64,000 nucleotides of DNA from Mumia sp. Pv4-285 (lineage in GTDB: Bacteria > Actinomycetota > Actinomycetes > Propionibacteriales > Nocardioidaceae). The position numbers were made by a program, and so were the translations under genes. Below are positions 43,589 through 63,291 of the stretch, piece by piece. Below the pieces are notes generated by a model. The model was not told where the DNA came from and did no database searches. It worked only from the letters and a program-made list of their open reading frames with translations. The stretch's first letter is position 1, and every line of letters begins with the position of its first letter. The stretch spans positions 124,001-188,000 of the forward strand of contig NZ_CP162023.1 of assembly GCF_041320275.1 (NCBI RefSeq). The letters are read 5' to 3'.

Positions 43589-43733
43589 GGTCGAGGCGCG
43601 AAGCGATCGAGACCACCACCCTCCGCCGGTCGAGGCGCGAAGCGATCGAGACCACCACCCTCCGCCGGTCGAGGCGCGAAGCGATCGAGACCACCACCCT
43701 CCGCCGGTCGAGGCGCGAAGCGATCGAGGCCCA
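43589..43733. repeat. Tandem array of four palindromic repeats, 39-bp period
   Basis: Four copies of GGTCGAGGCGCGAAGCGATC plus GAGACC start at 43589, 43628, 43667 and 43706, exactly 39 bp apart, joined by the same ACCACCCTCCGCC spacer. The last copy has one change (GAGGCC). It lies between the cupin stop and the MazEF-type antitoxin. Because spacers are identical this is a tandem duplication, not a CRISPR. Confidence 0.92.
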
Positions 43734-43765
43734 GCAAATGAATCCCACAGTGGTACCGTCCTGGT

Positions 43766-44002
43766 ATGACCACCCAGATCGCAGTGCGCTTGGACGATGA
43801 ACTCGTCGGTTTTGTGGACGAACTCGTACGGCAGGGCGACGCACCGAGCCGTGCCGCAGTAGTCGCTCGGGCGCTCCAGCGTGAGCAGCGCCGCAAGGTC
43901 GCCGAACGCGACGCTGCGATCCTCGCTGCTTCACCGAGAGACAACGACATGGACGGACTCGCAGAGTTCGCGGCCGGCGTGTCGATGGACGACCTCGACT
44001 GA
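43766..44002 (+). CDS. Ribbon-helix-helix antitoxin (MazE-like)
   Basis: A 78-residue antitoxin. The N-terminal ribbon-helix-helix is MTTQIAVRLDDELVGFVDEL, then PSRAAVVARALQREQRRKVA; the C-terminal tail is acidic (NDMDGLAEFAAGVSMDDLD) and would bind the toxin. It ends in TGATG, sharing one base with the toxin start, so it is co-translated. It follows the 39-bp repeat array. Confidence 0.88.
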   Translation: MTTQIAVRLDDELVGFVDELVRQGDAPSRAAVVARALQREQRRKVAERDAAILAASPRDNDMDGLAEFAAGVSMDDLD

Positions 44003-44304
44003 TGCGTCCGATCCACATGGCCCGTCTCGACAAGACTCGGCCGGTGCTGATCCTGACCCGTGAGGTCGTTCGTCCCCATCTCAGCCGAGTCACCGTTGCT
44101 CCCATCACGAGCACGGTTCGCGGGCTGTCAACCGAGGTGCCTGTCGGCTCGATCAATGGACTCGACCACGACAGCGTCGTGAGTTGCGACAACATCGTGA
44201 CCGTGCCGGTGGAATCGGTGGGACGGCAGATCGGCTATCTGCTCGAATCACAGGAGAGCGACCTGGCGCAGGCGATCCGAGCCGCGTTCGACCTAGATCT
44301 TTGA
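44002..44304 (+). CDS. MazF/PemK-family toxin
   Basis: A 100-residue mRNA endoribonuclease toxin. Family landmarks are KTRPVLILTREVV, VTVAPITSTVRGLSTEVPVG, NGLDHDSVVSCDNIVTVPVE and IGYLLESQESDLAQAI. MazF cuts free mRNA at short motifs and arrests growth when the antitoxin is lost. Complete and paired with the ribbon-helix-helix gene in front. Confidence 0.93.
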   Translation: MRPIHMARLDKTRPVLILTREVVRPHLSRVTVAPITSTVRGLSTEVPVGSINGLDHDSVVSCDNIVTVPVESVGRQIGYLLESQESDLAQAIRAAFDLDL

Positions 44305-44751: not shown

Positions 44752-45567
44752 TGGTGGTAGCGCTGCTGGCCGGTGTCGCGCTGGCGGTGGCGGGTACGGC
44801 GATCCAGCCGTGACGCGCAATCCGCTCGCCGATCCGACGATCATCGGCGTCGCCGGTGGCGCGTCGGTCGGTGCGGTCATCGTCGTGACGCTGGTGCCGC
44901 TCGCGTCGTTCTGGGCGCTGGCCGGGGCGTCGGGTATCGGTGCACTCGTGGCGGCGGCGATCGTGTTCGGGTTGGCGGCGCGTGGTGGGTTCGCGACGGA
45001 CCGGCTGGTGCTGATCGGTGTCGGCGTGTCGTTCGCGGCGAAGGCGATCGTGTCGCTGCTGATCGTGACGACGGACCCGTGGAACGCGTCGAAGGCGCTG
45101 ACGTGGCTCGGTGGGTCGACGTACGGCGGTCGTACGAGCATCTCGTGCCGATGATGCTCGCGATCGTGGTGCTCGTGCCGGCGGTGGTGATCGGGTACCG
45201 CTACCTCGATCTGTTGTCGATCGACGAGGACACGCCTCGTGTCTTGGGCGTACGGCCGGGGCGGGCGCGGTTCGTCCTGCTGACGTGCGCGGTGCTGCTG
45301 ACGGCGACAGCGGTCGCGGCGATCGGGCTGGTGGCGTTCGTGGGTCTGGTGGCTCCGCACGCGGCGCGGTCGCTGGTCGGGCGACGACACCTGCGAGTGA
45401 TCCCGGTGGCAGCGCTGCTGGGCGCGATCCTGCTGGTGCTGGCGGACACGCTGGGGCGGACGGTCGCCGCACCGACGCAGCTGCCGGCCGGCCTGCTCGC
45501 CGCGCTGGTGGGAGCCCCGTACTTCTTCTGGCTTCTGCACCGCAGCCGCCGCACCAGCGCCGGTTGA
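44752..45567 (+). pseudogene. Truncated, frameshifted FecCD permease copy
   Basis: It encodes the C-terminal half of a siderophore permease like the one ending at 38520, starting at VVALLAGVALAVAG. Two single-base deletions break it: near 44807 (ATCCAG-CCGTGACG, where the intact gene has CAGGCCGTC) and near 45126 (TACGGC-GGTCG). Between and after these the protein reads clearly (TRNPLADPTIIGVAGGASVG; VAFVGLVAPHAARSLVGRR; ending WLLHRSRRTSAG). The N-terminal half, ATPase and binding protein are absent. It is a remnant of a second siderophore uptake system. Confidence 0.88.
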
Positions 45568-45607
45568 GCCTGCCCTTGCCTCTCGACGGCAAAGCGACCT
45601 CCGCCCT

Positions 45608-46329: not shown

Positions 46330-46605
46330 TCGGTGCTGCTGACGGCGACGGTGTGGTGGCGATCGGTGTGGTGGCGTTCGTGGGGCCGGCTGCTCCGTTC
46401 GCGGGCGGTCGCTGGTCGGGCGCCGGCACCTGCGGGTGATCCCGGTGGTGGCGCTGCTGGGCGCGATCCTGCTGGTGCTGGCGGACACGCTGGGGCGGAC
46501 GGTGGCCGCGCCGACGCAGCTGCCGGCGGGCCTGCTGGCCGCGCCCGTGGGGCGCCGTACATATTGTGGCTGCTGCACCGCAGTCGCCGCACCACCGCCG
46601 GCTGA
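46330..46605 (+). pseudogene. Third, more decayed copy of the FecCD permease 3' end
   Basis: It is a fragment of the last ~90 codons, with several frame changes: a degraded LLTATxVAxIGxVAFVG part at 46332, then a clear IPVVALLGAILLVLADTLGR stretch and, in another frame, WLLHRSRRTTAG before the TGA at 46605. DNA identity is highest to the copy ending at 45567 (shared HRSRRT-AG end), so these two probably come from one ancestor. A minus-strand hypothetical gene separates them. Confidence 0.8.
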
Positions 46606-47114
46606 GCGGACCCACCGCTGGTTGGCCCTTCGAAACCTCGCTGGTCGGGCAGCCCGTTCGGTTCCCATGCGGAGGGTATCTCCACGAAGGCAGGGAGCTT
46701 GAGGGCAATGGGAACCGGCGCCGGTCGCCCCATGCCCCATGCCCCATGCCCCAGACGGTGTGCTGAACGCAGACGCGCGACTGCCCCATGGGGAAGCCCC
46801 GCGCCTCCCTGAACATAAGGGAACGGTAACCGCGCGGTCTCATTCTGGGCGGGTCGAGCTGGAGTGAAGGACACGTGCGTCTCACCCGCCTCCGGCGTGC
46901 CGCGCACCCATGGCGCAGGCCAGAAGAGCAGGCATTCGCCGAGTTTCGGGCACGAACTCGGTGCCTGCCATCGCCGTCGCCGCCACTCGGCTGTATGTTC
47001 TCGGGACGCGAGCCTGCTGAGCATTCGTGACGGACCGCCGCCTCTCGGCAAATCACTCCACAGGCTGACACGGAAGCCTGACACCTGCCGCGTCACGCAC
47101 GGTAGCGTTGGACC
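46606..47114. other. Gene-free interval with inverted and tandem repeats
   Basis: No gene is supported. It holds the repeat at 46616-46637, a 10-bp inverted repeat CGGTTCCCAT (46659-46668) / ATGGGAACCG (46708-46717), and three and a fraction tandem copies of GCCCCAT at 46727-46753. The A/T content rises towards the RNase D-like gene. Confidence 0.6.
46616..46637. repeat. Palindromic repeat after the third permease copy
   Basis: CGCTGGTTGGCCCTTCGAAA followed by CC, 11 nt after the pseudogene stop; a variant of the same repeat family as at 45608. Confidence 0.65.
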
Positions 47115-47735
47115 ATGGCTGCGACTCTTTTGGACGGCGATCTACCCGCGGAACTCGTGCGCCGAATTAGAAGCGACGGCCAAGTCGCAATCGATACCGA
47201 GACAAGCGGCTTGGACTGGTCCACGGATCAGCTTCAGCTGTGCCAGATCTTCGCACCTAGCACCGGCGTTGTACTGCTCAGGAATGTCACGGACACTCCT
47301 ACAGGACTTGGCCAGCTGCTAGACGACCCGGGGATTCTAAAGATCTTCCACTTCGCGCCGTTCGACCTGCGATTTCTGGAGGCACATTGGGGACTTCGGG
47401 CTCGCGGAATCTCGTGCACTAAGGCGGCCTCAAAATTGCTTACGCCGAGCGCGCCGCCTGGAGATCACAGCCTTCAATCACTTGCTCTTCGGTACCTCAA
47501 ATTGAACCTTCCAAAGGGGCGGGTGCGCACGAGCGACTGGGGCGCACAGTCACTGTCGCCGGAACAAATTGAGTACGCCTCGAATGATGTCTCACATCTC
47601 ATCGATCTGAACGCAATCCTCGCGACGAGAATCGAGGAGGATGGACTGACGAGCCTCCTCGCCGACGTATGCGCATATATACCGGTCGACTGTCATCTGG
47701 AGGTCTGCGAAATCCCGAACCCATTGACCTACTAG
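47115..47735 (+). CDS. RNase D-like 3'-5' exonuclease (DEDDy)
   Basis: A 206-residue protein with a single DEDD exonuclease domain: Exo I VAIDTETSGLDWSTDQLQL (Asp, Glu), Exo II FHFAPFDLRFLEAHWG (Asp) and Exo III EYASNDVSHLIDLN (Tyr and Asp, so DEDDy type). Typical RNase D has one or two HRDC domains after this; they are absent here, so it is the short, mobile kind. Base composition is less GC-rich than the core, suggesting transfer. Convergent with the HIRAN gene, sharing 4 bases at the stops. Substrate (RNA or DNA ends) not certain. Confidence 0.88.
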   Translation: MAATLLDGDLPAELVRRIRSDGQVAIDTETSGLDWSTDQLQLCQIFAPSTGVVLLRNVTDTPTGLGQLLDDPGILKIFHFAPFDLRFLEAHWGLRARGISCTKAASKLLTPSAPPGDHSLQSLALRYLKLNLPKGRVRTSDWGAQSLSPEQIEYASNDVSHLIDLNAILATRIEEDGLTSLLADVCAYIPVDCHLEVCEIPNPLTY

Positions 47736-48547
47736 CCAACGATCGGTTCCCAGGCGCCTGCGCGGTCGAACTCAAATCCCTCGGGGGCAGTCATATCCAG
47801 CTCCAGCACAAGGCGCAGATGTGCAGGGCTACCGGGTTCACCGACTCGTACGACGGTGACAAACGTAGGACCCGCTTCGATGAGCTCTCGAACGCTCGCC
47901 GACAGCGCTCTCGGCACCCACCCCACTGGCACCCCGTCTGATGTCACGAGCGTGGCAAACTTGTCTGTTGGGTTGCTGTGCTCTTCTTCGAGCGTCAGTA
48001 CGTGCCCAGCCCTAAGCCGACGCAACGCGGATTCTTGTTGCGCCAGCGATACCGCCACAAGTCGCCCGCTGATGTTTCGCTCGACCTCAGGGATGTGCCG
48101 CACCCCGTTGGCCAGAAAACGTGCAATCGCGCGACCGCTTGAAACCACTGGAACCTGCATGAACTGCAGCGTGTCGCCCGCACGTGCCCCCCCCGAGCTC
48201 ACAATTTGTTCCCAAGGTGTTGCCCGTGCCGGGTCGAGCCCGAGTGTCCGAGCGTAGGAAGAAAAATCCGGACGGTCCGGCTCCATCACTCGCTGAGCGA
48301 ATGCCAGGGGAATGTTCTCACTTACGTATTCGACCGTCAGGTCATTGAGGCCTGGGAGGGGTCGGAAACCCTCGATGGCTGCGGCAGCCCGCGTGTAAAC
48401 GAACCTGTAGGTGGAGCCAAGGCGGGCAAACCGGCCGATCGGGATGATCTCTCGCGTGGCCGGATGCTGCCAGAGCACGAGCAGGTCCTGCACCTGGGGT
48501 GATCCAGGCGGCGGACTTGGGCGGTCAAGGACTCCCGCTGATCGCAT
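47732..48547 (-). CDS. HipS-like plus HIRAN-domain protein
   Basis: A 271-residue protein with two parts. Residues ~20-130 resemble the small N-terminal domain of HipA kinases (HipS-like): LVLWQHPATREIIPIGRFARLG, then YVSENIPLAFAQRVMEPDRPDFSSY and LGLDPARATPWEQIVSSGGARAGDT. Residues ~155-265 resemble a HIRAN domain, which binds DNA ends or repair sites: GRLVAVSLAQQESALRRL, HVLTLEEEHSNPTDKFATLV, PVGWVPRALSASVRELI. It overlaps the HipA-like kinase gene by ~23 nt. It may be the partner/antitoxin of the kinase, or a targeting subunit; both inferred. Confidence 0.72.
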   Translation of the reverse strand: MRSAGVLDRPSPPPGSPQVQDLLVLWQHPATREIIPIGRFARLGSTYRFVYTRAAAAIEGFRPLPGLNDLTVEYVSENIPLAFAQRVMEPDRPDFSSYARTLGLDPARATPWEQIVSSGGARAGDTLQFMQVPVVSSGRAIARFLANGVRHIPEVERNISGRLVAVSLAQQESALRRLRAGHVLTLEEEHSNPTDKFATLVTSDGVPVGWVPRALSASVRELIEAGPTFVTVVRVGEPGSPAHLRLVLELDMTAPEGFEFDRAGAWEPIVG

Positions 48548-49487
48548 CTTGTAGCCTCCTCAGGTTCAGTTCGAGTAGTTCACACGCGAAGGTAGCGGCT
48601 GCTACCGACATTTCCGGGATCTCAAGCTGGCGCACGGGCTCGAGCACTGGTCGAAGGTCGAGCTCCATGATCCTGGACATCCACCACGCGCCGCCGTCGT
48701 GGCTGCACAAGGAGAGGCCGTGGGTCGCGTGGTCCACAAGCGTCCTTGGCCTGTCACGATGCTCGAACCGATGTGCCGTGCCATTGAGCGCCCATGCGTG
48801 TAGCGACAGGGGTTCGTCGAGGCATCTCATCCGCCTCTCGTCGGTCAGGTTATATCCAAGGCTACCTGCGTGATCGTAGGATGGGGCGAGTTGCTCCGGT
48901 TGTGAGATGAGCTGGGGGGTCAGAACTGCCCAGTTCTGCTCGTGGCGATCCCGGTTCGCAACGAGCGCATCCAGAATCAAGTATCCGACAAAGACATCGA
49001 AACCGTCCAACGTTGTCGGACCAGAGAACGTCGATGGCGCTGAGGTTTCACTCAGGGCAATCAGAATATTTGGAAGGGTGTGTCCCGGTCGCTTGACCAG
49101 TGGGCGACTTGGATCAACACCGGCATTTCCTTCGATGTGTGGGAAGTAATCTTGAATTCCGGCGCGCGTGAGGGCAACATGGCCTTCCCAAAGGGAGTGG
49201 CCCTCGGGTAGCACTGAAAGTGATAGGGACCCGCGCCGTCCGTTGCGTGTGCACAGCCGTGTCTTCGCGCAGGGTGCGCCAAGCAAGGCGCCAACCTGGG
49301 TCGAAACTACTTCTGCCCAATCTTCACCCTGCTCTACGCCGTTGGCGGGAATGAAGGTGTCTTTATGAAGCCATCGACTCGAGTCAACAGGATCCTCAAC
49401 CCAGTTCGTGGGTGTAGAGCCCACAGGCTCAACTTGACGCACGATCCAGGCCGAAGCATCTACCCGCTCCCACTCGCTGACTGACAC
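48525..49487 (-). CDS. HipA-like kinase
   Basis: A ~320-residue protein from the GTG at 49487 (reading can extend in frame to 49601). The kinase core of the HipA/HipT type is visible: GSTPTNWVEDPVDSSRWLHKD (nucleotide loop and Lys), GEDWAEVVSTQVGALLGAP, the catalytic loop LILDALVANRDRHEQNWAVL (Asp and Asn) and the metal Asp in LAPSYDHAGSLGYNL. HipA kinases phosphorylate tRNA synthetases and cause dormancy. No HipB-type DNA-binding protein is next to it; the overlapping HipS-like/HIRAN gene takes that place. Less GC-rich than the core. Confidence 0.78.
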   Translation of the reverse strand: MSVSEWERVDASAWIVRQVEPVGSTPTNWVEDPVDSSRWLHKDTFIPANGVEQGEDWAEVVSTQVGALLGAPCAKTRLCTRNGRRGSLSLSVLPEGHSLWEGHVALTRAGIQDYFPHIEGNAGVDPSRPLVKRPGHTLPNILIALSETSAPSTFSGPTTLDGFDVFVGYLILDALVANRDRHEQNWAVLTPQLISQPEQLAPSYDHAGSLGYNLTDERRMRCLDEPLSLHAWALNGTAHRFEHRDRPRTLVDHATHGLSLCSHDGGAWWMSRIMELDLRPVLEPVRQLEIPEMSVAAATFACELLELNLRRLQDAISGSP

Positions 49488-49739
49488 GAGCGATATTCTG
49501 CACGATCGACACCAGTGACACGAGGCTTTGCCCTTCCTGGTCGTTGAACGTCTGGTGCCCGCTTGCGGCCGCGCCGAGGATAGGCCCCCCTGTGACGCCA
49601 CCCTGACTCGTTGGTTTGTGACTGATCGAGTGGCACGAGTTCAGTTCAGGAGTACGCCAAACCTTGAGCAACTGGAAAGCGCTATCAGGTGCGGACCCGT
49701 ACTACAACAAGCCCGTCCCCAGAACCTGAACCTAGTCTT

Positions 49740-51608
49740 CTATCGATCCGGCCACCGCTTGAGTACGGCGGTCGTCAGCAGCTCGGTACGTGCATCGATA
49801 GTGCTGGGCCGCCAGCTGGGCTTTTTCACGCTGTCGTGCAATCGGAGCGGCGCGCAGGCGACAATCAGCTTCTTCTTTTCTGCGAACGGCTTCTTGCCAT
49901 TGCGCTTGTTGTCGTAGTTGGTGACGGCTGTGAAGTTGCCGAGTACGTAGCGGCGCTCATCCATGTCGTCGCGGTTGACGCGCCACGTGCGGAGCTCTGC
50001 TTCCCACAGGGCGCCGATGTTCTGCGTCTGCGGATAGATGTGTTCCAGCGAGTATTGGTTCGAGCGGTTCCCGAATGGCATTGGATGTGCTCCGGCGCCA
50101 GCGAGCTGTCGCTCGGCCCCGCGCAGGATGGGCATCAGGACTGAGCCTGGGATGTCGAGCTGGACGGTCTTCACAGCGTCCAGCACCTGCTTGTTGCTCT
50201 TCCAGCCAGCGTCTTTCAGTGCGGCGACGAGCTTCGAAGGCGTGATCGGACGATCGATGGCTGCCGCAACTCCCATCATGGTTGCGCGGAGCGGACTAAG
50301 GCTCTCTCCGGACAAAATCGTCCTGACTAGGAACGACTCGATCTTGTTCACGATGGCGAGTAGATCCGCTGGCGGGACGTCGTCGATGAGTGCTTGAAGC
50401 ACCAGCGGGACACCTGGCCCGCTCGACAGAGCCATCGTCTCGCGGATGAGTGCGAAGACATCGTCGTCGACCGAGTACTCCTTGCCGAAGATCGTCACGG
50501 ATTGCTTCTGCCCGACGGCGATGGGATAGACGGCTGCGGCATCCGCTATCTGCTTTCCCCATGTCTTGTCGAAGGCCGCCTCGGACGTTTCAGTGACGGC
50601 GTACCCGATGTCTTCGATGACTCTGTTGACCCAGCGCCGATGCAGCGATTCGCGGCTCACTTTGTCTTCGCCCAGCGAGATCATGTATTCGTAGAGGAAC
50701 TGTTCCTCCGACTCGGTGCGGAGCGCTGAGTAGGAAACCTTTGTGAGCAGATCCTCCATCGGCTGCCAAGTTCCTGCGTAGTATGCGTCGCGCTTCGTCG
50801 GCATACGGATGAAGGCTGAGTTCCGCAATAAATCGAACTGCCGGAGAGGCGTGCTCTTAGAGTTCATCGTCTCGAAGATCACGCTCGCCTCTTCGTCGTC
50901 ATTTTCAAGGACAATCGATAAAAGCTTGAGGCCTTGCGTGAGCACAAGATGGAAAACGTCCGGTCGGACCTGTTGCGTTTTTGGTGCGCCCGGACCCCAA
51001 GGCACGTATGAACCGCGGGGCGGTGCGGTCTTCGTCCGCCGCGGCTTGGGAGGGATTGAGACTCGCGACTCGTGCAGTGTGGGCTCCCCGTTCCAGAACT
51101 GCCATCGAAAGAATCGGTACGCCTGGAGCAACGGTGAGTCGTAGTGGAGGTCCGGGATCTCGTCCCGACACTCGCCTCGGAGAATGACGTCCATTGCCGC
51201 TTGGTTCATCGGTCGGACTGTGAGTCGGGCACACGGTGCCCCGTACTTGGGCGTGATTGTTGTGAGCTCGTTGTCTGGTGGGATCACGGTGCCGTCCGTC
51301 TTCGAGACGTGGTCACGGAACGCGGCTAGGCAGACGAAGAGTGTTAGTAGCCGCTGTTGGCCGTCGATAGCCGAGAAGGAGTGGACGTTCGATCCTGTCG
51401 GTGCATCACGCGTTTCGAGAATCACTGCGCCCATGTAGTGAGCTGGACAAGGCTGATTGGACGCCGTGAGTTGGTACTGATGTGAAAGATCGCGCCAGAG
51501 GTCAACCCATCGCTCCTCATTCCACTCGTATGGACGTTGGTAGGCAGGAACGACGAGCTGAACGTCGCCATCCAGATAGTGACCAGCCTCAACCTGGTTT
51601 GGCCTCAC
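49740..51608 (-). CDS. DUF262/DUF1524 (GmrSD-like) one-chain nuclease
   Basis: A 622-residue protein. The N-terminal DUF262 part (GmrS-like, NTP-binding/ParB-like) has VVPAYQRPYEWNEERWVDLW, FSAIDGQQRLLTLFVCLA and VIFETMNSKSTPLRQFDLLR. The C-terminal DUF1524 part (GmrD-like HNH nuclease) has QYSLEHIYPQTQ, RYVLGNFTAVTNY and NKRNGKKPFAEKK. GmrSD enzymes restrict DNA carrying glucosylated hydroxymethylcytosine, so this is probably an anti-phage type IV restriction enzyme. GTG at 51608 has GAGAGG 8 nt upstream. Foreign-looking base composition. Confidence 0.9.
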   Translation of the reverse strand: MRPNQVEAGHYLDGDVQLVVPAYQRPYEWNEERWVDLWRDLSHQYQLTASNQPCPAHYMGAVILETRDAPTGSNVHSFSAIDGQQRLLTLFVCLAAFRDHVSKTDGTVIPPDNELTTITPKYGAPCARLTVRPMNQAAMDVILRGECRDEIPDLHYDSPLLQAYRFFRWQFWNGEPTLHESRVSIPPKPRRTKTAPPRGSYVPWGPGAPKTQQVRPDVFHLVLTQGLKLLSIVLENDDEEASVIFETMNSKSTPLRQFDLLRNSAFIRMPTKRDAYYAGTWQPMEDLLTKVSYSALRTESEEQFLYEYMISLGEDKVSRESLHRRWVNRVIEDIGYAVTETSEAAFDKTWGKQIADAAAVYPIAVGQKQSVTIFGKEYSVDDDVFALIRETMALSSGPGVPLVLQALIDDVPPADLLAIVNKIESFLVRTILSGESLSPLRATMMGVAAAIDRPITPSKLVAALKDAGWKSNKQVLDAVKTVQLDIPGSVLMPILRGAERQLAGAGAHPMPFGNRSNQYSLEHIYPQTQNIGALWEAELRTWRVNRDDMDERRYVLGNFTAVTNYDNKRNGKKPFAEKKKLIVACAPLRLHDSVKKPSWRPSTIDARTELLTTAVLKRWPDR

Positions 51609-52382
51609 CGGAACAACCTCTCGCGTGGGGGTGCACTCTGACGTCCGAAGTTAACCATTGGGGGCGTTAGGGTGGCAGTGCAATCGCGAAGCAGGTGTGG
51701 CCTCGACTTGACTCGGGTCCGGCCCGTTGAGGACGATGCCATGCCTCGGGCGGGAGTGGCCGCTGCCCGTCCGCTCCGCTCGAAGATGCATCCGCGGGTG
51801 GTCGTACGTCGCGGCAGCTGCCGACGGAATCGCCCGCCCGCGGGTCGAGCGCCGCGGCTGGTTGTCGCCCGCCTGGCACGCTCCGAAAGCCGAACGGTGC
51901 GCTACCTGTCACGCCATTGCTGACGCGGGCGAGATGACCTTGCTCCCCCGGATCCCTGGTCCATCACATGTGGCGATAGGACTTGGGCCGTCACTGCGAA
52001 GAGCCGCTTTGCCTCGCCCCGCCCGCGTTGGCGACGTCTACTTCGCGCGTATCCTCGCCTCCGGCTGGTGCTGGCATACGCGGCGACACTCTCGATGTGC
52101 CCGGTGCTGTCTCGTCCCACCCGCCGACCTGCTGGGTACGAGATGTCGGCGATTGCCGCGGCTCGCCGAGCGCAGGGTCGCCCGAAACCGTAGGTTCGTG
52201 TTCTGCTTGTTTGCGCCGACTGCCACCCCGACGACTGTCAAGCGAGTTCCCGCCGGCGTGAGAAGCCGCCACGGCGCAGCCCGGAGCTCCAGCGGCGTCT
52301 GAGGTCAGCTGGTGGAGTCCGGTGAGCGAGGAATAACCATCGAGGCGCCACGGGACGACGTCAGCTGACTAGAGTCTCTGCG
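51609..52382. other. ~770-bp interval without a supported gene
   Basis: Several open stretches exist on both strands (for example 51727-52302 on plus) but none shows protein-like composition or a family. It separates the island nuclease from recC and presumably holds the recCBD promoter near its right end, where GACTAGAGT (52366-52374) lies 8 nt before the GTG. Confidence 0.5.
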
Positions 52383-61236: not shown

Positions 61237-61242
61237 GGGGTG

Positions 61243-61659
61243 ATGCCGTCGATCGCGCAGATGCTGGCCGAGCTCGAGTTGGAATCACTTCGCGAGCCGC
61301 TCGATGAACAGGTAGAGGTCGCAGGAGAGACCCACCACATTGCAGGCATCAAGAAGGTGTTCCGAGGACGTGGGCTTCCGATCCCCGGCGCGGGAATCGA
61401 AATCAACGACGCAATGTGCGTGCTGATCCCTGAGCCGTGGAACCCGCACGACCGCCACGCCGTCGCTGTCGCAATCGACGGACACCAGGTTGGGCACCTG
61501 CCCGCGACGCTCGCCCCGGACTATGCCGAACCTCTCGCTGTGGTTGCACGCGGCGGCTACCTCGTCACAGGCACTGCGCGCATCTGGGCCAAGGACGACG
61601 GGTCCGGCGTGGTTCGCGCCCGTGTCACCATTCTGATTCCGGAGGCAGTCGAGCTGTGA
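61243..61659 (+). CDS. HIRAN-like small protein
   Basis: About 138 residues from the ATG at 61243 (GTG at 61240 also possible). Residues ~30-110 resemble a HIRAN domain: HHIAGIKKVFRGRG, then CVLIPEPWNPHDRHAVAVAI and GHQVGHLPATLAPDYAEPLA. HIRAN domains bind single-strand 3' ends or stalled/damaged DNA. Its place behind recCBD and a DUF2510 gene, in a defence-like region, fits a DNA-processing role. This is a second HIRAN-like protein in the window. Confidence 0.7.
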   Translation: MPSIAQMLAELELESLREPLDEQVEVAGETHHIAGIKKVFRGRGLPIPGAGIEINDAMCVLIPEPWNPHDRHAVAVAIDGHQVGHLPATLAPDYAEPLAVVARGGYLVTGTARIWAKDDGSGVVRARVTILIPEAVEL

Positions 61660-61890: not shown

Positions 61891-61917
61891 GCTTGAATTT
61901 GGCGAGTGGAGAATTCC

Positions 61918-63291
61918 GTGGACGAGAACGAACCGCGAGACGCTTACCTCCTAAAGGGCCGCAGGGTGCTGATCTCCGACCTGATCAGCGCGAGCCTGCT
62001 CGAACCCGGAACGGGGCTGGTCTTCAAACGGCCGCGTCTTGGAATGACCTATCACGCCACCGTCACCGAGGATGGAAAACTCGCACTGCCGGACGGCCGA
62101 GCGTTCGCGTCGCCATCCCGTGCGGCAATCGTTGCAGCTGGCGGGTCCTTGGACGGGTGGCACGCGTGGCAGGTCGCGCCTGACGGAGAATTCTTGGACG
62201 ATCTCCGGCAGCGGTTGTTGGATCGCGTTGCGGGGGTCGCGAGATCACACGAATCTGGTGACGGAGATGTGCCGAAGTGGCAATCGCATTACGACTTCTT
62301 GCGTAACGCTCGCCGACTAGCTGAGGATGGCTCTCCCATTGAAATTCGGGTCCGCGATCTCTTGTCTCTGTGGGGTGCAAGCGGTAGAACGCAGGCTGCC
62401 AGCGAGCAACTCGCCGCAGATCTCGATAACCACGGACTGACGACCGAACCGCACTTCTTGAAGATAGGGATTGACTCATACGTATTGGTGGTTGAGCGAC
62501 CCACCGAGAACGAAGAAGCCTTCGTTGGGGCGAGTGAGGAAGCGGACCCGGAGTCTCCGGAGAATGATGCGGACGTGGGCCTCACGTTGGGTAACATCCC
62601 CTCCGCGAACCTTGGAGTGGAGGCCATAACGCCGCAGGCGACATACGAAGAAGCGATCACTCGGATGCTCCTTAACGATTATTCGCAGCTTGCGGTAATG
62701 ACGGGCCGCCGGTCAGTGCCCGACGCTGTCACCTGGCAGTCGATCGCTCGCGAACGTCACGTCCATCCGCAGGGCGGTTTGGCGGGTGCGGTGGTCAGCG
62801 CCACAACCTTGTCGTACGACACCGAGCTCATCGATGTACTCCGCATACTAGAGTCGGAGGATTTCGTGTTCGTGAAGGATATGACAAACAAGGTGACTGG
62901 AATCGTTACGACCACCGACGTTGTGCGCGCCTATGGTCAACTTGCAACCCCCTTCTTCCTTATTGGCGAACTGGATCAACTGCTGCGGCGGGTTATTGCG
63001 GACAACTTCACGATGGACGAAGTGCGCTCCACGTGTGCCGGTGATAGCGGCCGTAACTTGCAGACCTATGATGAGCTTACAATGGGAGATTACGAATACA
63101 TGCTCCGGAATGGAACTCATTGGTCCACCCTTGGTTGGCCGTTGGACCGGGCGACCTTTATTGCGCGGCTGTCGGAACTTCGTGAAATCAGGAATGACTT
63201 GGTGCATTTCAATCCAGATCCTCTTCCGGAACACACCGTAACTCAGATTCGATACATGATTCAGGTGCTCAAGAAGTATGCGTCAGCGTAG
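61918..63291 (+). CDS. RAMA-CBS-HEPN fusion protein, probable defence effector
   Basis: A ~457-residue protein. Residues ~15-87 match a RAMA domain, the module of restriction systems proposed to read modified DNA (LISDLISASLLEPGTGLVFK, then VTEDGKLALPDGRAFASPSR and GSLDGWHAWQV). Residues ~240-355 resemble a CBS pair (GAVVSATTLSYDTELIDVLR ... NKVTGIVTTTDVVRAYG). The C terminus resembles a HEPN domain with RNDLVHFNPDPLP (R425-x4-H430), the likely RNase site. GTG at 61918 has GGAG 6 nt upstream; GTG at 61906 would add four residues. Codon use is much less GC-rich than recBCD, so it looks transferred. The function is inferred. Confidence 0.75.
   Translation: MDENEPRDAYLLKGRRVLISDLISASLLEPGTGLVFKRPRLGMTYHATVTEDGKLALPDGRAFASPSRAAIVAAGGSLDGWHAWQVAPDGEFLDDLRQRLLDRVAGVARSHESGDGDVPKWQSHYDFLRNARRLAEDGSPIEIRVRDLLSLWGASGRTQAASEQLAADLDNHGLTTEPHFLKIGIDSYVLVVERPTENEEAFVGASEEADPESPENDADVGLTLGNIPSANLGVEAITPQATYEEAITRMLLNDYSQLAVMTGRRSVPDAVTWQSIARERHVHPQGGLAGAVVSATTLSYDTELIDVLRILESEDFVFVKDMTNKVTGIVTTTDVVRAYGQLATPFFLIGELDQLLRRVIADNFTMDEVRSTCAGDSGRNLQTYDELTMGDYEYMLRNGTHWSTLGWPLDRATFIARLSELREIRNDLVHFNPDPLPEHTVTQIRYMIQVLKKYASA

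Follow-up and report, generated by a model that had tools for sequence, protein, structure and literature searches.

A 64,000-nucleotide (nt) stretch of Mumia sp. Pv4-285 (contig NZ_CP162023.1, positions 124,001 to 188,000; hereafter the window) carries a locus that, by its gene content and predicted folds, is a hipIN module, a family described in 2021 (Gerdes, Baerentsen, Brodersen 2021, PMC8262856). The locus encodes a HipA-family kinase, HipI, and its partner HipN, in which a HipS-like domain is joined to a HIRAN domain, and a diDNase-type exonuclease gene lies directly beside the pair. We judged it somewhat probable that the hipIN module is mobile and linked to a diDNase-type gene, and that its HIRAN-gated kinase would serve as an abortive-infection switch; the locus may raise the alarm against phage by reading DNA ends. 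We preferred this reading because of the predicted folds, the catalytic residues, the matches to the PDC-M03 profiles of PADLOC, the segment's low guanine-cytosine (GC) content, the co-occurrence of the nuclease with HipN and the convergent arrangement in 11/11 linked copies, and because hipIN also occurs in a plasmid restriction-gene setting and in a Vibrio prophage-like record.

The kinase gene comes first and hipN second in the pair, the order given by an earlier sequence-only reading of this DNA. That reading placed the two genes at 47732-49487 with an overlap of about 23 nt, and the overlap was exactly 23 nt when measured from the hipN ATG at 48547 to the kinase stop codon at 48525-48527. 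An AGGAGG motif within hipI precedes the hipN ATG with a 7-nt spacer. The start of hipI is uncertain: the GTG at 49487 was the earlier choice, and the reading frame extends without a stop to 49601. The earlier two-gene locus overlooked a third, convergent gene for a diDNase-like DEDD exonuclease, whose stop codon and that of hipN lie within a common CTAG palindrome.

HipI had been called a HipA-like kinase, and the model supported this. The protein matched the PADLOC PDC-M03A profile (4.4e-97), and matched Pfam HipA_C below the cut-off (5.1e-5, 23.5 bits; cut-off 30.5 bits). The AlphaFold2 model, with a predicted local distance difference test score (pLDDT) of 95.4, matched CtkA in Foldseek (2.6e-12), followed by HipA and HipT, and CtkA (2.6e-11) was the sole match of the HipI profile among PDB sequences at E <=0.1. 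The claimed catalytic loop NRDRHEQN was present, and D180, H182, N185 and D205 were invariant in 26 sequences. The metal loop, earlier described as DHG-type, is D-H-A-G in HipI, and DHG is seen in several relatives. HipI shows the features of a hipIN kinase, namely a HipA-type core with catalytic motifs and no N-subdomain-1, and its 320 amino acids lie within the 279-321 of the published hipIN kinases (Gerdes 2021, PMC8262856).

HipN had been read as a HipS-like region joined to a HIRAN-like region, and both parts were recovered. The protein matched Pfam HIRAN (2e-6, 28 bits; cut-off 24.7) and the PADLOC PDC-M03B profile (1.1e-70), and its AlphaFold2 model, built with 32 relatives, had a mean pLDDT of 90.1. 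VIA-align matched residues 19-133 to HipS (7vkb_B and 8ezr_A at Z 11.3, with 100 residues aligned at a root-mean-square deviation of 2.1; 7ab3_E at Z 11.0). Residues 136-266 were matched to the HIRAN domain of HLTF (4xzg, 6kcs, 4s0n; Z 10.2, about 105 aligned), and the HIRAN domain was matched to lp_0118 (3k2y_D) at Z 13.1. In Foldseek, lp_0118 (1.8e-4) was the sole match reaching E 0.001; Legionella HipBST HipS (7vkb_B, 8ezr_A) and HLTF HIRAN (6kcs, 4s0n and others) each had a probability of 1.00. A HIRAN domain was present in all HipN proteins of our alignments. The HIRAN domain of HLTF binds the last nucleotides at a DNA 3' end, and the PDB entry 5bnh, among the Foldseek matches, is titled as HIRAN bound to a single-stranded DNA fragment. 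The window also encodes a second, stand-alone HIRAN-like protein of 139 residues (61240-61656, plus strand) downstream of recC-recB-recD, with a Pfam HIRAN match just under the cut-off (6.9e-5) and NPHD and GHL kept at HLTF-aligned places. The adjoining gene (61906-63291, plus strand) encodes a RAMA (restriction-methylase associated) domain (6.3e-23) and gives a weak CBS match.

We filed the locus as hipIN because every testable structural feature of that family was found. Published hipIN loci are likewise bicistronic and without HipB, and nothing in the available part of that description distinguishes the window locus from them; the diDNase gene, present here, is not mentioned in that part of the paper (Gerdes 2021, PMC8262856). 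The supposed unseen departure from HipBST is thus a member of a described family, with full-length HipN in 22/391 genomes of the window's order. HipBST systems (E. coli O127, Legionella) likewise have a separate HipS-like inhibitor domain and a HipT-like kinase. They carry HipB in the operon, the HipS gene ahead of that for HipT and no further domain on HipS, whereas the window locus has no HipB, the kinase gene first and HIRAN fused to HipS. Library scans of five neighbouring proteins detected no HipB-like family, in line with the earlier statement that HipB is missing; the next genes are those of the DEDD nuclease and of a GmrSD-like protein. A HipBST variant was dropped in view of the absent HipB and the wrong gene order. 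Both genes, being adjacent, match the A and B profiles of PDC-M03, a candidate defence system in PADLOC, and no difference from it was seen; a search of openly licensed PMC papers found no mention of the PDC-M03 name. HipL unites the same three domains (kinase, HipS and HIRAN) in one fused protein, whereas here they are divided between two genes (Gerdes 2021).

The third gene encodes a likely DNA dinucleotide-digesting enzyme, a prediction made because the DEDDy motifs (DTETSG, FHFAPFD, YASNDV) and the equivalents of F88 and Y206 are present and the best PDB sequence match is 9qrf, 'ancestor of diDNase' (9.1e-44). The next PDB sequences were 9f7g (3e-36), nanoRNase C 9rtc (1e-25) and 9f7d, 'diDNase' (6e-23), and the Pfam PF01612 match was 3.8e-29. 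The residues H81, F88 and Y206 (diDNaseNoc numbering) are named as defining diDNases, whose substrate is DNA dinucleotides only (Mortensen 2025, PMC11706625). The window enzyme has F87 (equivalent to F88) and a C-terminal Y206, and the H81 position holds F, as in NrnC. Of the 11 linked enzymes, five have H, five F and one Y at this position, and all four unlinked enzymes have H; a diDNase double mutant H81F/Y206H kept its diDNase activity (Mortensen 2025, PMC11706625). In the diDNase-HIRAN-HipA clusters of the same paper, too, genes with HIRAN and HipA domains immediately adjoin a diDNase-type gene; the window enzyme differs in having F at the H81 position named as defining. Among the matches listed for viral contigs, one (L112) was a full-length diDNase-like match (36 percent).

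We then surveyed two draws, 391 genomes of the window's order and 394 of its class. In the order draw, a HipN match was found in 23 genomes, 22 of them full length, and the nuclease in 9; the six genomes with both had the genes side by side. Full-length HipN occurred in 6/9 nuclease genomes versus 16/382 others (5/8 versus 16/382 excluding the window's genome). The class draw gave the nuclease in 6 genomes, a HipN match in 14 and both in 4. The linked loci (n=11), which take in a Flexivirga genome and a Nocardiopsis plasmid besides the draws, all had the nuclease gene convergent with hipN (11/11), with gene ends overlapping by 4, 7 or 25 nt in 9/11 and gaps of 12 and 37 nt in the other two. 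Pairwise distances of the nuclease tracked those of HipI (r 0.93) and HipN (r 0.87; Mantel p 1e-4 each; 0.85 and 0.80 in the 7 closest loci), a result in which co-function and descent of the segment as a single piece are not told apart. These comparisons showed, at the level of gene and protein sequences, that the three genes have been inherited together long-term.

Alternatively, the nuclease gene could have no tie to hipIN and simply travel with it in islands. It lies on the opposite strand, where any promoter would be its own, and four genomes (G408, G650, G738, G369) carry the nuclease without HipN. Against this stand the single arrangement in all linked copies with mostly overlapping gene ends, the co-occurrence and the congruent distances, although the distances would also agree if the segment had simply been passed down as a unit. 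We consider an unrelated neighbour quite improbable. About one third of 93 diDNase genes adjoin HipA- and HIRAN-domain genes, with the functional link left for investigation (Mortensen 2025, PMC11706625). The diDNase-hipIN association is therefore already in print, and what is added here is the uniform convergence, the congruent distances and the restriction to a long-HIRAN subclade; neither this subclade nor the congruence was found in the available part of Mortensen 2025.

The HipN proteins differ in length directly after a VRH motif that aligns with the DNA-contact region of HLTF. At the place of residues 153-178 of the HipN encoded here, the short group has 8-19 residues and the long group 22-28, and the long stretch is modelled as a hairpin and a helix with a pLDDT of about 95. 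The nuclease was linked in 11/18 long versus 0/28 short loci (46 distinct loci), with the 22-residue cut-off set after the lengths were known and with the loci related to one another. The counts leave out L072 (a near copy of L071), L016 and L017 (duplicate entries of L072 and L070) and five plasmid hits (H3, H4, H6, H7 and H8). Two partial loci, L207 and L208, do not enter the total over all loci, although L207 appears among the short loci of the class draw; the broken loci L073, L079 and L083 are among the short members. With relatedness ignored, Fisher tests gave p 0.005 for the order draw (12 short loci; 0.01 without the window), 2.4e-6 for all distinct loci and 0.03 for the new loci of the class draw (3/4 long versus 0/6 short). 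In a tree built without the stretch columns, the short group formed one side of a branch (support 89/76, below star level), and the nuclease label required 6 changes versus a shuffled mean of 9.9, with 1/500 shuffles as low. A single gain of the nuclease followed by several losses is possible on this tree. We considered HLTF-like residues at the D94 and K113 places (HLTF numbering) as a mark of the nuclease, and found D and R in 7/11 and 6/11 linked loci; both also occur in unlinked loci of the same clade (L015, L070-L072), and these residues mark the clade. A tie between nuclease loss and kinase decay was also dropped: among long-stretch loci without the nuclease, the kinase is broken or missing in L015 and L059, but it is so too in the linked L098 and several short loci.

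The restriction to long-stretch HipN may point to a receptor with a reset. The HIRAN of this subclade would bind very short pieces of DNA with 3'-OH ends, as small as deoxydinucleotides, from digested phage or host DNA and turn the kinase on, and the diDNase would destroy the ligand and turn it off. Ring nucleases are a comparable off-switch in CRISPR type III. This proposal builds on the reduced HLTF contact motifs of HipN, taken to mean a changed pocket suited to very short DNA. It agrees with the position of the stretch behind VRH, the congruent distances, the 3'-end binding of HLTF HIRAN, the 5bnh title and the published dinucleotide specificity of diDNases. Weighing against it, the nuclease is absent from 7/18 long loci, and in at least 3 of these (L068, L070/L071, L094) the kinase frame is unbroken, so that the nuclease is dispensable; the nuclease also occurs without HipN, the cut-off is post hoc, the loci are related, and the D94/K113-place residues follow the clade rather than the nuclease. 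We regard this explanation as unlikely, and slightly more speculative still is its fuller form, in which diDNase-linked HipN would be a small-molecule DNA sensor whose HIRAN, altered at its contact site by the 22-28-residue stretch, binds deoxydinucleotides or other very short 3'-ended DNA and frees HipI, after which the diDNase erases the signal and the cell recovers.

The GC content of the diDNase-like gene, hipN, hipI and the GmrSD-like gene is 57-62.5%, versus 69.3% for the window, 71.3% for recC and 69.5% for recB. When four same-genus genomes were compared, three had no DNA matching the segment at the equivalent place and the fourth offered a contig end only; no HipN match was found in any of the four. 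The low GC and the missing same-genus match indicate, from DNA comparison, that this is a recently acquired accessory segment adjoining recC. Window HipN shares 60% identity with L054 (f76, another family of the order) and 41% with L052 (f1, its own family), a pattern that fits horizontal movement or old paralogy. The GmrSD/DUF262-like gene of the segment (49740-51608, minus strand) matched Pfam GmrSD_N (1.9e-26), the PADLOC Orf5 profile (3.5e-51) and HEC-06. Guarding of RecBCD, encoded next door by recCBD, was dropped as a role: adjacency alone was seen, and the segment occupies a variable site beside recC.

Relatives of the module were found in other mobile settings. On the Rhodococcus pyridinivorans plasmid NZ_CP088976.1 (L095, 2628-7254), hipI-hipN is flanked by genes for a restriction specificity subunit and a DNA methyltransferase, a placement resembling that of PrrC inside its restriction operon. 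The idea that type I restriction operons commonly house hipIN was dropped, L095 being the sole case. A Nostoc plasmid carries hipIN beside DUF499 and DUF1156 genes. Four Vibrio phage records hold a HipN relative; in PQ189286.1 (L092, 11590-14431; a small tailless, prophage-like phage) it follows a HipA-like gene beside an integrase. If the pair were a plain toxin-antitoxin (addiction) module keeping its mobile segment stable, and HIRAN a DNA anchor of the complex or a non-sensing inherited domain, this would account for carriage on plasmids and a prophage, the place in an accessory segment and the toxin-antitoxin layout with overlapping genes. This reading has little chance in our view, given that HIRAN occurs in every aligned HipN and that the long stretch and the nuclease are co-inherited, neither of which addiction requires.

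We return to the abortive-infection switch as the preferred reading. By analogy with HipBST, the HipS-like domain of HipN would bind HipI and keep the kinase silent. Phage infection or damage would produce free DNA ends or single-stranded DNA, HIRAN binding would loosen HipN, and the released HipI would phosphorylate an essential target, so that growth stops before phage is made. The target of the known Hip kinases is an aminoacyl-tRNA synthetase. The diDNase would act in the same process and clear short DNA products. The sequence-only reading had also raised DNA-end sensing, and the same hypothesis is in print: neutralisation of HipI by HipN is putative, and recognition of phage DNA ends with kinase release leading to abortive infection has been proposed (Gerdes 2021, PMC8262856).

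Several observations weigh against this reading. A search of openly licensed PMC papers found no function in print for the locus. The kinase gene is absent or broken in L015, L059, L069, L073, L079, L082 and L098. The three proteins of the L095 restriction setting had no match in the other loci of 52 (tblastn 1e-6, a weak search with single-sequence queries). Of the HLTF-matched residues, R151, N192 and D195 agree in window HipN and the others differ, and actinobacterial HipN HIRAN domains are without most DNA-contact motifs (Gerdes 2021, PMC8262856), which speaks against simple HLTF-like DNA binding. In L015 (3525-5963, Nocardioides alpinus), some 1.5 kb of other DNA splits the HipI frame, and the remainder lies over two frames.

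Table 1. Coordinates of the hipIN locus and its surroundings in the window.
Feature	Position	Strand	Basis
hipI, HipA-family kinase without N-terminal subdomain, 320 amino acids	48525..49487	-	PADLOC, AlphaFold2, Foldseek, invariant residues
Kinase catalytic loop NRDRHEQN, residues 178-185	48933..48956	-	Sequence; metal loop DHAG at residues 205-208
hipN, HipS-like + HIRAN, 271 amino acids, putative antitoxin/sensor	47732..48547	-	Pfam, PADLOC, structure matches
HipS-like domain, HipN residues 19-133	48149..48493	-	VIA-align
HIRAN domain, HipN residues 136-266	47750..48142	-	VIA-align
Long HIRAN stretch, HipN residues 153-178, directly after VRH motif	48014..48091	-	Predicted hairpin and helix; subclade mark
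Shine-Dalgarno AGGAGG of hipN, within hipI	48555..48560	-	Sequence
hipI/hipN overlap, 23 nt	48525..48547	-	Sequence
diDNase-like DEDDy 3'-5' exonuclease, 206 amino acids	47115..47735	+	Pfam, PDB sequence matches, motifs
Palindrome CTAG common to both stop codons	47732..47735		Sequence
Accessory segment: diDNase-like gene, hipN, hipI, GmrSD-like gene; beside recC	46608..52338		DNA comparison, GC

Other features were noted nearby. A permease-like gene has its 3' portion duplicated (46331-46607 versus 45290-45572, approximate), and the two copies align to one and the same stretch in genomes of the genus. At 43766-44304 (plus strand), a ribbon-helix-helix gene precedes one for a PemK/MazF-like toxin (3.4e-13), and an in-frame tandem repeat lies at about 43600-43790 within a short open frame (RSRREAIETTTLR).

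The locus belongs to a described family, and its value is that of a compact, testable example. The HIRAN ligand in HipN and the reason for an adjoining dinucleotide nuclease were left open by both source papers in their available parts (PMC8262856, PMC11706625). The point of interest is the unexplained tie of a dinucleotide-specific nuclease to one HIRAN subclade. Together with the co-inheritance of the genes, this confinement leads to a specific prediction, with short DNA as the ligand and the nuclease as its eraser. If this is true, deoxydinucleotides would act as an immune alarm that a dedicated enzyme switches off, the unexplained diDNases would gain a role, and the waste of DNA digestion would serve as an alarm signal in bacterial immunity.

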